Below the pieces are notes generated by a model that was not told where the DNA came from, did no database searches, and saw only the letters and a program-made list of their open reading frames with translations. A program made the translations under genes and the position numbers. Of a stretch of 33,850 nt of DNA, positions 20,687 through 26,118 are shown in pieces; positions within the stretch are counted from its first letter, which is position 1; each line of letters starts with the position of its first letter. Source of the DNA: Chloroflexota bacterium (GTDB taxonomy: Bacteria > Chloroflexota > Anaerolineae > UBA4142 > SHND01); contig JAKOPZ010000185.1 in the NCBI GenBank assembly GCA_029778615.1, positions 1-33,850 on the forward strand, in the 5' to 3' direction.

Positions 20687-23605
20687 TTACGGCGGCGGCG
20701 TGAACCCCGGACGCGGGGTCGCGTTGGGCGAACCCTGCTGCGCGTTGCGCGCGAGCAAACGCGTGTACGCAATCACATCCAAAATTTGGTCTTGCGAAAG
20801 TTTGTTGCCCCACGCGGGCATATAACCGCGTCCGTTCAAAATCGTCGCATACAGATATTGTTCGTCGTGCAATAACACATGCGTCGTCAAGTCAAACGGT
20901 TTCACCGGCAGCGATGCCGCGCCCGGTCCATCGCCGTATCCTTTTTCGCCGTGACAGACCGCGCAGTTTTGCTCATAAATCGTTTGTCCCGTTGATGCGC
21001 GCGTAGTGTTGACGGGAATGTTTTGATTCGCAGCAGTGGTGCCGTTTACCGCGTCAATAAAAAGTCCAATGCCCAACAGCACGGACGCTGCGCCAATGCC
21101 CAGCATCACGAGCCGCGCATTCTTGGCGCGTTTCCCGCCGCTCCCAACCAACAACACCACCACACCCACAACCACCATCACCAACGCGCCGTCGCCTTCC
21201 AAATCGCCTGTGATAAATCCAGCCGGACGCGGCGAACCTTGCACCGCTGTCGTGAGCGGACTCGATGGTCCTTCTGCAACAGGCGCAACGGTCGGCGCGG
21301 GCACAACATTCGTCGGCGCCTCGATGGCAATATCGGGACTGTCAAAATCTTGATAATACTGCATCATGTAATGGCTCGTCGTCACCATTCCAAATTGCAG
21401 TACGCGTTTGTCGTCTTGGGCAATCCAATACGCGTAATGGATTAACTCACTGCCGCTCGTATTCGGCGTGTCAAACAAAATGATTTGCGCGGGGACGTTG
21501 CCGATTTTATCAGCGCGTCCAAAAATGGCGGACTGTGCCGTGTCGGCAAAATCAAATTTCGGAAACGCAAAATTTTCCACACGCGCGCGCAGCGTCCACG
21601 AGCCGTCTTTGTTTTGATAATATTGGTCCGCGCCGATGGCGATGGATTCGCCCTGTCCCACGATTTGAAATTTTGTTTTGTCCGGCGCTTGATAATCAAA
21701 TAACGAAATTGCCACGCCATTCGCGCCATCGTTCAACTGCTGTGTCGAACGCAGTGTCTTGAGCGCATTCATTTTTTCCTGCGCGCGCGCCAGCTCAAGC
21801 TGCGCAATCATCACCGGCGGAACGTTGGTCGCAACCTGCGGCTGGATATAGTACGCAAAATCAACGGATTGGTCATTCAAGCCCTGCCGCCTGACGGTCA
21901 CTTTGATTTTCCACATGCCTTCGAGCGAAAGATAATTTCCTTCCGCCGCGTACTGATTTTCGCCGCGCGGTTCCGCGTTCACATTCTGCGCGCCCGTGTC
22001 CTCGTTCAAGTACATGAAATTGAAAATCACGCGCTGAACGTTCGCGAGCGGATTGCCGTCGCGGTCGGTGACACGTGCGTTGAACAGCGTTGGCGCGTTC
22101 GGCTTGGGACCAAGTTCCAGCAGTACCTGCACATCGTCCGCTGGGAAACCTTGCAAAACAATCGGGCGCTCCGGCTGTGTTTCCACAATCGGCGCGTTCT
22201 CTTGCGTCGGTTCAGAACGCGGCGGCGGCGACAGCGTTAACACACCCGCCAAAAAAATCGCGCTCACGCCAAGCAGCACTTCTGCCGCCACCGTGACACG
22301 AAAACGCGAAAATAATCGTGCCGTCTGTGCGGGTTCTGACACAAATTTACGAAAGCGCGGCGAGAGAAAAAGCAGGTTCATCGCGCCAAACACAATCATC
22401 ACCGCGAACAAGCCCACTTTGACGAGCAGCGCGTCGTTGTACATGGTTTCCGTGAGTTGGGCGAGAGTGGGGAGTGCGCGCGTCGTAAAAATATCGAGCG
22501 CGGGAATTTGTTGGAGCGAGTTGTAAAGACCCGTGAGGAAAATGATGGGCGTTGCCACGAGCGCGACAATGGAAAATTGCGGAATCAGCCAAGCCATCCA
22601 CGCGCCGCGCGTTTTGGCATCCAGCGCGCGCCAGATAAACGGCATCACCCACGCAAACGAAAACAGTCCGCCGACCCATAACGCCACACACAACAAGTGC
22701 AGCCAATCGGCAAGCACGGGCAGCGAATAATTGCCCGCCGCGGCGGAATGGCTCAACAACGAACGCGTAAACAACGCGACGTTGCCAATGACAATCAATG
22801 CGTAATCATAGAATGGCACGGTGACGCACCGCGTTTCCATAAAGACCAGCACCGCGCACGCCGCCACAAGCCCCGCGCGCAGCAGCCACAACGTCCCAAA
22901 ACGCGAATTGAACAGAATGGTCGAAATCGCGGTAAACGAAATTTGGTCGGCAACCAGACTCGCCTGCTGTGCGAGTTCGACGACGTTGCTCACAAAAAAC
23001 AAAACAAACGCGAGCGCAATCATTTGCTGCCAACGCGTGAGCGCGATTTTGCGCGCCGCTTTGTTGGCTTGCACCGCGTCGAGCGAGCGGTCGAGCAAAA
23101 AGAAACGAAAGATGAAACCGCCGACGAGCGCGAGGAGGGCAATCAGACTCAACGCGCGCGCCCCCGCCGAGAGCGGCGTGAGTTCATTCGGCGCAGTGGA
23201 CGCGCCCGAATCCACCGGCACCGCCGCCGCACCTGCCGTATTTCCGACGCCGAATGCGAAAACGCCGCGCGTAATATGTCCGTCCGTCGCGGACAACACA
23301 TTCCACAAAACGTTATAGTTGCCGTCGCTCAGCGGCTTGAGCGGCACAATAACGGACATGGGGTCGCCCGGGACAGGTTGCAATTCGCCCGTGTCCACGC
23401 GCTGCTTTTGCGCGTCAACCACTTGCACTTGACTGAAACTAATTTCAACAGCTTCGTCGAACCACAATTGCACTTGCGTCGGCGCCGCGCCCAAAACAGA
23501 ATTGGGCGCGGGCGTCGCTTTGACCAAACGCGCGTGCGCCGAAACCGTGCTGACGGTCAGCGCCAGTAAAAACAATGCTGCGGCAAAACGCAACCAAAAT
23601 TTCAT
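20687..23605 (-). CDS. CopC-CopD-YtkA-like-cytochrome c fusion protein
   Basis: A 972-residue secreted/membrane protein. Order: signal peptide 1-23; CopC domain 24-120 with N-terminal His24 of the mature chain and TDGHITRG (Asp108, His110), the Cu(II) brace residues; a CopD-like membrane domain with about eight helices (160-460); soluble beta domains, the first YtkA/FixH-like (LQGFPADDVQVLLELGPKPN...); a further helix pair; and a C-terminal class I cytochrome c with heme motif CAVCH (881-885) and distal Met929 in GRGYMPAWG. A copper import or delivery function coupled to electron transfer is inferred. The start is ATG 23605, preceding a clear signal sequence; the open frame extends 22 codons further. 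It lies 10 bases after the upstream CopC-like gene. Confidence 0.9.
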   Translation of the reverse strand: MKFWLRFAAALFLLALTVSTVSAHARLVKATPAPNSVLGAAPTQVQLWFDEAVEISFSQVQVVDAQKQRVDTGELQPVPGDPMSVIVPLKPLSDGNYNVLWNVLSATDGHITRGVFAFGVGNTAGAAAVPVDSGASTAPNELTPLSAGARALSLIALLALVGGFIFRFFLLDRSLDAVQANKAARKIALTRWQQMIALAFVLFFVSNVVELAQQASLVADQISFTAISTILFNSRFGTLWLLRAGLVAACAVLVFMETRCVTVPFYDYALIVIGNVALFTRSLLSHSAAAGNYSLPVLADWLHLLCVALWVGGLFSFAWVMPFIWRALDAKTRGAWMAWLIPQFSIVALVATPIIFLTGLYNSLQQIPALDIFTTRALPTLAQLTETMYNDALLVKVGLFAVMIVFGAMNLLFLSPRFRKFVSEPAQTARLFSRFRVTVAAEVLLGVSAIFLAGVLTLSPPPRSEPTQENAPIVETQPERPIVLQGFPADDVQVLLELGPKPNAPTLFNARVTDRDGNPLANVQRVIFNFMYLNEDTGAQNVNAEPRGENQYAAEGNYLSLEGMWKIKVTVRRQGLNDQSVDFAYYIQPQVATNVPPVMIAQLELARAQEKMNALKTLRSTQQLNDGANGVAISLFDYQAPDKTKFQIVGQGESIAIGADQYYQNKDGSWTLRARVENFAFPKFDFADTAQSAIFGRADKIGNVPAQIILFDTPNTSGSELIHYAYWIAQDDKRVLQFGMVTTSHYMMQYYQDFDSPDIAIEAPTNVVPAPTVAPVAEGPSSPLTTAVQGSPRPAGFITGDLEGDGALVMVVVGVVVLLVGSGGKRAKNARLVMLGIGAASVLLGIGLFIDAVNGTTAANQNIPVNTTRASTGQTIYEQNCAVCHGEKGYGDGPGAASLPVKPFDLTTHVLLHDEQYLYATILNGRGYMPAWGNKLSQDQILDVIAYTRLLARNAQQGSPNATPRPGFTPPP

Positions 23606-23615
23606 TTCAACACAC

Positions 23616-24173
23616 TCACTCTGATTCACCTTGCGCCGAACGCATACGCCAAAACAAAACTCCAACGGCAATCAACACGACCACTCCCGCGCCAATTAAA
23701 AAGCGCGAAATGAGGTCGACGGTGGTGTTGCTCATTGGCGCAACGGGCGTGGGCGTCATTGCCACCCCGGGCAGCTGCGGTGTCGGCGTCGGCGGAACAA
23801 CGACATTGACGCCAAATTGAAATTCGCCGTTTGTCAATCCTTGGTCTACCGTATCCAACACTTGCCATTTCACCGTGTAAATTCCCGGCGGCATTTTTGC
23901 CGTGTCGAGCGAAACGACCAGGGTATGATTGTCTTCGGGATAAAAATGCGTATCGTTTTTATCCACGCGCTGTCCTTGCGCGTCGCTCACCATCATGGAA
24001 ATGTTGGTGGGATTCAACGGGTCGCTAAATTGACAAATGAGTTCGGCAGGGGGTTTTGAAACTGTCATTCCAAAACGCGGCAAACATGCGAGCGGAATCG
24101 CATGAGCAGAAACAATCTGCGTGGCGCACAATCCGGCGAGGAGGACAATGACGAGGGCGATGATTTTTTTCAT
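23616..24173 (-). CDS. CopC-like secreted, C-terminally anchored protein
   Basis: A 185-residue protein: signal peptide 1-23 (MKKIIALVIVLLAGLCATQIVSA), a CopC-like beta domain starting at His24 (HAIPLACLPRFGMTVSKPPAELICQFSDPLNP), a proline/threonine linker (PTPTPQLPG) and a C-terminal membrane helix near 147-172, then RMRSAQGESE. Cys30 and Cys47 could form a disulfide. The Asp-x-His brace motif of CopC is replaced by TVDQGLTNG, so the usual second His ligand is missing. The start is ATG 24173, overlapping the previous stop (ATGA). It probably works with the downstream fusion as a copper-binding or scaffold protein. Confidence 0.82.
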   Translation of the reverse strand: MKKIIALVIVLLAGLCATQIVSAHAIPLACLPRFGMTVSKPPAELICQFSDPLNPTNISMMVSDAQGQRVDKNDTHFYPEDNHTLVVSLDTAKMPPGIYTVKWQVLDTVDQGLTNGEFQFGVNVVVPPTPTPQLPGVAMTPTPVAPMSNTTVDLISRFLIGAGVVVLIAVGVLFWRMRSAQGESE

Positions 24174-24634
24174 GTGGAAACGCGCGGGCGCAAGCGCAGA
24201 CCGAGAATCAATAATCCAATCACGGTGATAGTAAATACGCCCATCAAAGGTGCGAACCACGCGCGATTAAAAATGGGGTCGTGATTTTCCACCGGCGCGG
24301 CGAGCACCAAGATTTCATCGGACGCGAGAATTGTTCCGTCCGGCGCATACAGCTCTGCCTTGAGACGATGCGGACCCGACGGATTCGGAATGGTGATGTT
24401 GGTTGTCGTTCCGCCATTCACGATGCCTTGCCGTTCGCCGTCAATCAACACTTGCCATGTATAGTTTTCATTCGCTGCGACACCGGTAATTTCTACGGTA
24501 ACCGTAATTTCGCCCAACTCGACATTTCTGCGGTCAGCCGGTTTCACAAAGCGAATGGCAGCTCCGGATTGCGCGTGTGCGACGATGGGCAGAAACAACA
24601 TCGCCGCCAAAAGGATAAAGAGCATTCGTTTCAA
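24170..24634 (-). CDS. secreted Ig-like membrane-anchored protein in the copper locus
   Basis: A 154-residue protein: signal peptide 1-21 (FILLAAMLFLPIVAHA), one Ig-like beta domain (AIRFVKPADRRNVELGEITVTVEITGV..., NITIPNPSGPHRLKAELY) and a C-terminal membrane helix (about 128-148, APLMGVFTITVIGLLILGL) with a basic tail. The beta domain is similar in style to the FN3/Ig-type repeats of the CopC-LPXTG protein upstream (ILAPLDNATLPAGDVKVE). There is no metal-binding cluster. It starts 7 bases after the previous gene and overlaps the next (ATGA). The role is unknown. Confidence 0.75.
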   Translation of the reverse strand: MKRMLFILLAAMLFLPIVAHAQSGAAIRFVKPADRRNVELGEITVTVEITGVAANENYTWQVLIDGERQGIVNGGTTTNITIPNPSGPHRLKAELYAPDGTILASDEILVLAAPVENHDPIFNRAWFAPLMGVFTITVIGLLILGLRLRPRVST

Positions 24635-24641
24635 GTTCGCC

Positions 24642-24890
24642 TCACAAATTTCGAAAACCCACTACCGCCATTGCCAACGCGCCGAGCAAAAACAGAATCG
24701 CGACGGATTGAATGACCATGCGCCCAACACCTTTTGGCGCGTCGGCGGGCAAGAGAAAAGAATAACTAATGACCGCGAAAAAGATTAACGCGAGCGCCAG
24801 GTCAAATTCCCAATGCCCTGTCAAAATGCCGCCGTGCGCTGTGATAGTCAGCACATGCGGTAATGGCGGAAAAACACTCCAAACGTTCAT
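24642..24890 (-). CDS. small two-helix membrane protein, 82 aa
   Basis: Family not recognised. Two hydrophobic segments (about 30-46, FDLALALIFFAVISYSF; 60-78, VIQSVAILFLLGALAMAVVG) joined by a short polar loop (LLPADAPKGVGR). The N-terminus contains His12, His19 and His26 (PPLPHVLTITAHGGILTGHWEF), possible copper ligands. A stable hairpin at 24899-24928 lies 8 bases before its ATG. It leads the tightly packed gene block down to 20687. Confidence 0.65.
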   Translation of the reverse strand: MNVWSVFPPLPHVLTITAHGGILTGHWEFDLALALIFFAVISYSFLLPADAPKGVGRMVIQSVAILFLLGALAMAVVGFRNL

Positions 24891-24957: not shown

Positions 24958-25968
24958 CTATCGTCGCGCGCGGGCAACCACGAGCGCGCCTCCACCAACA
25001 CACAACAATCCAAACAGGACAAGCAGTCCGAGTCCGACATTATTCATGTCACCGCCCGTTGACGGCAAAGTTGTCGCAGGCGCGGCTTGCGTCGGCGCAG
25101 GCGTTGGCGCGGCAGCCGTTTCCGTTGGTACGGCAGTCGCGGTCGCGCTTGACATCGCTTGCGTCGGCGCCGCTGTCGCGGTGGCTTGCGCTTGTCCCGC
25201 CGCTTCGACGTTAACATGCACGTGCGTGCTCAACGCGTCCATGTGTTCGCTCGTTGCCAAATCTACGCGCAGTTCATGGCGTCCGGGTTCCAGATTCAGC
25301 GTGGTCGAAGTCTGCGCGCCTTCGCCCATCAATGCCAGGTTGCCGTCCACATAGAAATGCAGGTGCGTGCCATTTTCGCCGAGCGTCATGCCGTCCACCT
25401 GCGCTTCGACCTTGACGTCACCGGCAGGCAGAGTTGCATTGTCAAGCGGTGCGAGAATTTTGAGCATAACTTGTTTCCCATCAATCATGGCTTGCGCCAT
25501 GCTGTGGTCTGCGCCGTCATCCTGCCCCATCGCTTCGGGTGTCGTGGTTTGGTCCATCGAACCCATGTCCATACCGTGACCGACGGTGAACTTGAACTCA
25601 CCGCTCGCGTCGTCGCCGTCAGCGGCAGAAACGGTTTTCCATTTCACCGTGTACACGCCGTCTTTTACCATTGCCGTATCGAGCGAAACGGAAATCGTCA
25701 CGCGGTCCGCGTCGTTCAAATCCACGGCCGAATCTTTTTTGTCCACTTGCATACCGCTCGCGTCAAAGACGCTGAGCGACGAGCCGTCCGGATTCATCGC
25801 TTCCGATGTTTTGCAGACAACCTTGTCAGGCGCGGTTTCCACCGTGCTGTTCATTTCGGGCGTGCAGCTTGAAATTTCCGCGTGTGCTTGCGCGACTGAC
25901 AAGCGCACCACCGCGCCGAGCGCGAGCAACATGCACGCGCCGACAAAAAACGCGATTACTTGTTTCAC
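24958..25968 (-). CDS. CopC-like protein with LPXTG-type cell-surface sorting signal
   Basis: A 336-residue secreted protein. GTG start at 25968 with a strong GGAGGG ribosome site 8 bases upstream. Domains: signal peptide 1-28; CopC-like domain 29-130 beginning HAEISSCTPEMNS (His29, Cys34, Cys52), with DGDDASG where CopC has D-G-H; a Met/His/Asp-rich segment 132-162 (MDMGSMDQ, DHSMAQAM) likely to bind copper; an Ig-like domain 167-255 with THLHFYVDG and STHVHVNV; a Thr/Ala/Pro linker; then LPSTGGD (301-307), a hydrophobic helix and RARR. The last three are a canonical sortase signal. It lies upstream of the copper-locus block and downstream of the 141-aa gene. The longer open frame to 26103 runs through a repeat and is not used. 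Confidence 0.88.
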   Translation of the reverse strand: MKQVIAFFVGACMLLALGAVVRLSVAQAHAEISSCTPEMNSTVETAPDKVVCKTSEAMNPDGSSLSVFDASGMQVDKKDSAVDLNDADRVTISVSLDTAMVKDGVYTVKWKTVSAADGDDASGEFKFTVGHGMDMGSMDQTTTPEAMGQDDGADHSMAQAMIDGKQVMLKILAPLDNATLPAGDVKVEAQVDGMTLGENGTHLHFYVDGNLALMGEGAQTSTTLNLEPGRHELRVDLATSEHMDALSTHVHVNVEAAGQAQATATAAPTQAMSSATATAVPTETAAAPTPAPTQAAPATTLPSTGGDMNNVGLGLLVLFGLLCVGGGALVVARARR

Positions 25969-25998
25969 GAGAATTCCCTCCGTGGAATAAATAATTTT

Positions 25999-26118
25999 AG
26001 GACTTGCGCTTGTCATTTCGAACCCCTCAATCCTTCGGGGTAAACTCTGTGAGAAATCTCGCACTTTACCGAGATTTCTCGCAGAGTCGGCTCGAAATGA
26101 CATCTGAGCCCAAGTCCT
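25999..26118. repeat. nested palindromic MITE-like element
   Basis: Four nested pairs: AGGACTTG (25999-26006) with CAAGTCCT (26111-26118); TGTCATTTCGA (26011-26021) with TCGAAATGACA (26092-26102); ACCCC (26022-26026) with GGGGT (26037-26041); and a 17-base inner stem 26045-26061 with 26070-26086 (one mismatch). The TGTCATT ends match the element at 11879-11966. It has no coding capacity and lies between the 141-aa gene and the CopC-LPXTG gene. Confidence 0.8.

Follow-up and report, generated by a model that had tools for sequence, protein, structure and literature searches.

A CopC-CopD-YtkA-like protein carrying a C-terminal cytochrome c domain is widespread in Chloroflexota

Gene organisation

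The stretch of DNA analysed here (33,850 nucleotides, hereafter the window) encodes a protein of 972 residues at complement(20687..23605), with its ATG at 23605 and its stop codon at 20687-20689. The initial annotation had placed this gene at the correct coordinates, and only the strand needed to be corrected to minus, as the plus strand of 20687-23605 contains stop codons throughout. It had also described a four-part fusion of CopC, CopD, YtkA-like and cytochrome c domains. The parts that it named are present, but their number was too low, since the protein also has a second soluble domain and a pair of transmembrane (TM) helices. The full order is signal peptide, CopC, CopD (8 TM), YtkA-like domain, second soluble domain, TM pair and class I cytochrome c. 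These features, and the minus-strand gene run upstream of the fusion, parts of which are conserved in the genus, are as follows.

20687..23605, minus strand: complete fusion gene (open reading frame, Pfam, orthologues)
23537..23605, minus strand: signal peptide, residues 1-23, with its VSA end before His24 (sequence)
23243..23536, minus strand: CopC domain, residues 24-121, with the Cu(II) His-brace H24, D108, H110 (Pfam, fold)
22232..23176, minus strand: CopD membrane domain, residues 144-458, 8 predicted TM helices (Pfam, AlphaFold)
21836..22168, minus strand: YtkA-like beta domain, residues 480-590 (Pfam in relatives, fold match)
21302..21817, minus strand: second soluble domain, residues 597-768 (AlphaFold, low confidence)
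21023..21199, minus strand: TM helix pair, residues 803-861 (AlphaFold model)
20750..21010, minus strand: class I cytochrome c domain, residues 866-952 (Pfam, fold match)
20951..20965, minus strand: haem-binding motif CAVCH, residues 881-885 (sequence; C881, C884 and H885 in 57/57 fusions)
20867..20881, minus strand: HxxxH pair, H909 and H913 (alignment of fusions against stand-alone cytochromes)
20819..20821, minus strand: Met929, second haem ligand (57/57 fusions)
23616..24173, minus strand: upstream partner of the fusion, a small CopC paralogue with a membrane anchor but no second brace His (Pfam CopC, E 2.3e-9)
24170..24634, minus strand: small Ig-like protein, secreted and membrane-anchored (related proteins occur at several loci of the genus)
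24642..24890, minus strand: small membrane protein of 82 residues (same gene run)
24958..26103, minus strand: CopC plus DUF4399-like protein with an LPSTG-TM tail end (probable start nearer 25968)

An assembly error or frameshift joining two genes at 20950-21100 was considered as a source of the fusion. Each of the five other species of the genus, however, has a full-length orthologue (57-74% identity), two of them with an additional copy, so that all six species carry the fusion. Since full-length matches are also spread over the phylum, an artefact of this kind is excluded. The named members of the genus are Anaerolineae/Chloroflexi metagenome-assembled genomes.

Domain identification and structural modeling

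Pfam matches of the fusion to CopC, CopD and Cytochrome_CBB3 all exceed the gathering scores, and its NCBIfam matches (CopC, CopD and CcoP-like cytochromes) all lie below cut-off. The protein was modeled with AlphaFold using an alignment of 57 relatives, which gave a cofactor-free model with a mean pLDDT of 79.2 and a pTM of 0.58; with eight sequences the pLDDT was 49.6. Values were mostly 85-98 for the CopC, CopD, YtkA-like and cytochrome parts. With CopC outside the membrane, the helix order in this model would place the cytochrome domain and the two soluble domains, together with H286, D300 and H303, on the outer face of the membrane.

The Cu(II)-brace CopC domain (His24, Asp108, His110) proposed in the initial annotation was borne out. 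Pfam CopC covers residues 24-120 (E 1.8e-20), and the predicted fold matches the YcnJ CopC domain (9c14) with a Z score of 15.8 and an rmsd of 1.3. A23 and H24 are invariant in alignments across the genus and almost so phylum-wide. The proposed CopD membrane domain was likewise confirmed, by its predicted helices and a Pfam CopD match to residues 341-456 (E 1.4e-13). Across the 57 aligned fusions, which share approximately 30% identity outside the genus, residues H24, D108, H110, H286, D300, H303, C881, C884, H885 and M929 are all invariant. Both H286 and H303 also occur in a Priestia YcnJ-like protein, and we infer that H303 is the counterpart of YcnJ H295.

The predicted CopD helix bundle (residues 133-468) matches subunit I of cytochrome bd oxidase with a Z score of 17.9 and, with a Z score of 16.6, the alternative complex III C subunit. 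The similarity may mean that such helix arrangements are common, or it may point to remote relatedness with quinol-oxidising proteins.

For the soluble beta domains, which had been called YtkA-like, the picture is mixed. Pfam YtkA does not match the window protein itself. Its relatives exceed the Pfam YtkA cut-off over the aligned region, and the fold of residues 480-590 matches copper-binding CrdA (Z 13.3), with P19/FetP/FtrA proteins matching as well. The domain model for residues 597-768, in which the helix and strands span 597-755, is of low confidence and shows an N-terminal helix followed by antiparallel strands, tentatively resembling LolA/LppX. No Pfam match was found for this region, and a profile search of solved structures (PDB) gave only weak, unrelated matches. 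Within the protein family, this extra soluble domain occurs at three positions: at 21302-21817 as in the window, after the cytochrome (L052, L056, L063, L065), or after CopD (L075). The loop between the helices of the TM pair is basic (GGKRAKNAR).

The cytochrome c domain and its HxxxH pair

The C-terminus of the fusion has the CxxCH motif, the distal Met and the fold of a class I cytochrome c, in agreement with the initial annotation (CAVCH, Met929). Pfam Cytochrome_CBB3 matches residues 870-947 (E 9e-14), and the predicted domain is all-helical with the fold of cytochrome c552 (9vr0, Z 15.7). The cytochrome c maturation family PF01578 is encoded in the window's genome and the model puts the domain outside the membrane, which would fit a covalently attached haem.

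The fusions were compared with 43 cytochrome domains of other proteins from the same and related genomes. His is present at H909 in 52/57 and at H913 in 53/57 fusions, with both together in 52/57, whereas the equivalent positions hold His in 4/43 and 7/43 stand-alone cytochrome domains, respectively. The corresponding Fisher p values (1e-17 and 9e-16) overstate the case, because the sequences are related. As the pair is common in fusions and rare in stand-alone cytochromes, H909-x3-H913 is a signature of the copper-linked cytochrome, and these two histidines could themselves bind copper. Among the His-bearing comparison domains is one separate small cytochrome beside the fusion gene of genome G013. 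This 167-residue cytochrome c (L052:2567-3070:+) carries the HxxxH pair and is 49% identical to the window's cytochrome domain; for the cytochrome domain within the G013 fusion the value is 44%.

Distribution and association with haem-copper oxidases

The possibility that the window holds a rare, odd fusion was rejected, as the fusion is widespread in Chloroflexota. Approximately 65 of 400 sampled genomes of the phylum have a match over essentially the whole CopC-to-cytochrome model, and the fusion is represented in more than 30 family-level groups. The CopC-CopD-YtkA-cytochrome c architecture was found in 82 of the extracted CopD-containing proteins (some loci were fetched twice), with some variants having an extra YtkA or a second cytochrome. 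When the genus alignment was used for a profile search of genome contigs, matches were found in members of the genus only. A search of plasmids matched 159 records, none of them covering more than 80% of the query or having the full architecture, and thus no case was seen outside Chloroflexota, where plasmids rather than chromosomes were searched.

The initial annotation had called for a check for terminal oxidase genes nearby. None lies within the 33,850-nt window; the COX1 matches of this genome are on other contigs (C265 and C70). The flanking window genes that were examined include no recognisable multicopper oxidase or exporter. At the level of whole genomes, COX1 is present in 23 of 24 with the fusion versus 2 of 16 without any fusion match, kinship being ignored in this count. 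The association may merely reflect aerobic life. In G013, the gene directly upstream of the fusion encodes CtaG, a cytochrome oxidase assembly factor.

Natural variants lacking or replacing the haem

Absence of the haem motif in orthologues was the result named beforehand as counting against the fusion. The motif is indeed absent from some relatives, but these absences sit in derived clades beside haem-bearing ones, so that the objection holds in derived lineages only. Haem state requires at least 11 changes on the CopC-CopD tree.

One such set comprises 13 proteins from as many species, all of one Anaerolineae family, in which the TM pair is retained together with a cytochrome-like domain. 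Their CxxCH motif lacks the second Cys and the His, the HxxxH pair is absent, and the Met is replaced, with a new Cys approximately three residues further on. The set forms one supported clade next to a haem-bearing protein. Neither a missing oxidase nor a missing maturation pathway accounts for the loss of the haem, because COX1 is present in all 13 genomes of this family and PF01578 in the three tested (3/3). The C-terminal ~60 residues of these proteins (L196-L204, L206, L207, L080, L081) contain two conserved cysteines, and the domain is possibly a disulfide-bonded pseudo-cytochrome.

Elsewhere, the protein of one genus in another family ends with the TM pair, and the sister genus still has the haem. 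A PCuAC copper chaperone takes the C-terminal place of the cytochrome c in one CopC-CopD-YtkA protein (L072:8687-10972:+), and in three others (L060, L061, L062) that place is taken by a long C-terminal region, with a weak propeller-repeat match in L060.

Discussion

CopC-CopD fusions were already known, as the initial annotation stated. The closest parallel is YcnJ of Bacillus subtilis, which shares with the window protein the order CopC His-brace-CopD-YtkA, the CopC fold (9c14), the CopD His and the association with haem-copper oxidases. YcnJ has no haem domain, however, whereas the fusion adds the second soluble domain, the TM pair and the cytochrome c. Mutation of CopC H24 or CopD H295 abolishes YcnJ function under copper limitation; its YtkA domain aids CuA-type oxidase function, and all three matter for haem-copper oxidase function under these conditions (PMC13344008). 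The affinity of the YcnJ CopC domain for Cu(II) is subfemtomolar (PMC12362106).

Other systems share single elements with the fusion. CtiP of Corynebacterium glutamicum, a CopD-CtaG fusion acting with the CopC protein Cg1884, also joins CopD to an oxidase-assembly module (PMC9145763), but its module is CtaG where that of the fusion is cytochrome c. A CopC is paired with a c-type cytochrome in the solved CopC-flavocytochrome c complex of Thioalkalivibrio paradoxus (5n1t) and, genetically, in the copCD-fccAB cluster, whose copCD and fccAB genes are co-induced (PMC5744179). Those are separate proteins with a flavoprotein partner and are linked to thiocyanate dehydrogenase, whereas the fusion is one chain. 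The cupric reductase CcoG and the proposed cupric reductase CrpH are membrane proteins thought to supply Cu(I) to haem-copper oxidases (PMC7558416, PMC13038864). Unlike the fusion, neither has CopC or CopD: CcoG uses iron-sulfur clusters, and CrpH is a PepSY_TM protein with haems held by His pairs. The occurrence of haem and HxxxH in one domain of the fusion could hint indirectly at a cupric reductase. Each domain, and the CopC-CopD-YtkA combination, is therefore known already, and the covalent cytochrome c fusion is the new element; in the open-licence literature, a scope that leaves older subscription-journal surveys of the CopC family outside, we found no description of a covalent CopC-CopD-cytochrome c fusion.

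The reading that we prefer, and to which we give an even chance of being correct, is that the fusion is a YcnJ-type factor for copper acquisition and oxidase metallation, with a haem that exchanges an electron with copper. The CopC His-brace would capture Cu(II) outside the membrane, from where the copper would go to the outer-face CopD histidines and/or the YtkA-like domain. During this hand-over the tethered cytochrome c, with H909-x3-H913, would exchange one electron with the copper, so that haem-copper oxidases would receive it in the right redox state. By analogy, capture and hand-over are likely, because of the mutation and affinity data for YcnJ. Electron exchange between haem and copper would most plausibly occur near H909/H913. 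The initial annotation had suggested copper transport coupled to electron transfer or copper reduction during import, and a redox role gains indirect support from the fusion-specific HxxxH in the haem domain, which is gone in the haem-less clade.

The direction and place of this exchange can be narrowed somewhat. The potential of a His/Met haem is usually positive, and therefore reduction of tightly bound Cu(II) would be uphill. Because the YcnJ site is of subfemtomolar affinity and the haem potential positive, reduction on the His-brace seems unlikely, and we lean towards reduction of Cu(II) after it has left CopC. A stronger version of the preferred reading would make the fusion a new class of haem c-dependent importer, in which an H909/H913 copper site beside the covalent haem changes the oxidation state of copper for import or for CuA/CuB loading; this we regard as possible but doubtful. 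Counting against an essential haem are the 13 haem-less species, the one genus with the TM pair only and the one PCuAC replacement.

The haem-less and PCuAC variants would be better explained if the cytochrome domain were an address tag that docks onto COX subunit II where cytochrome c binds, while YtkA/CopC loads CuA, electron transfer being incidental. YtkA (CtaK) has been implicated in CuA assembly (PMC13344008), a copper chaperone stands in the C-terminal place in L072, and a cytochrome-like domain without haem persists in 13 COX1-bearing species. Docking alone, however, leaves the invariant haem ligands of the other fusions and the fusion-specific HxxxH unexplained, on both of which a redox role does better, and overall we judge docking unlikely.

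Electrons might also flow the other way, with Cu(I) oxidised by the haem and the electrons handed to a terminal oxidase; the Cu(II) formed would be captured by CopC, or the oxidation would serve detoxification. For a His/Met haem and a very tight Cu(II) site (affinity: PMC12362106) this direction would be thermodynamically easier, and the cytochrome domain has its nearest relatives among soluble electron carriers, c552 and c6 for example. YcnJ-type proteins, however, serve copper starvation and not detoxification (PMC13344008), and with neither a multicopper oxidase nor an exporter recognised among the flanking genes examined, we consider this reading improbable. Least probable of all is a chance tether to the copper protein, with a cytochrome that serves general respiration or is a relic: the domain resembles ordinary cytochromes c and is lost or haem-less in several lineages, but its covalent linkage and ligands are kept in all those family-level groups and its HxxxH pair is specific to fusions.

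The Cu(II)-to-Cu(I) step in CopC-CopD importers is an open question in two recent YcnJ papers (including PMC12362106). Because the haem fusion is conserved phylum-wide and has a matched haem-less counterpart in one family, this question becomes directly testable on single polypeptides. The fusion is a natural system in which to study how bacteria alter copper's redox state as they deliver it to their oxygen-respiring enzymes.

The neighbours of the fusion may hold further copper sites. The CopC paralogue directly upstream is conserved in the genus, and phylum-wide this place is often taken by a CopC paralogue or by an unannotated secreted family whose mature form starts with AHExR. Both neighbouring CopC proteins of the window (23616-24173 and 24958-26103) lack the second brace His of DGH and have two cysteines in similar places, which suggests either a copper site of another kind or a disulfide with a structural role. 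Proteins of the AHExR family (AHExRxVGxY...GFxxEPA) are secreted and membrane-anchored, and usually lie directly upstream of the fusion, as at L051, L053, L059, L135, L141, L145, L149, L152, L168 and L170. Their possible N-terminal His suggests another candidate copper site.
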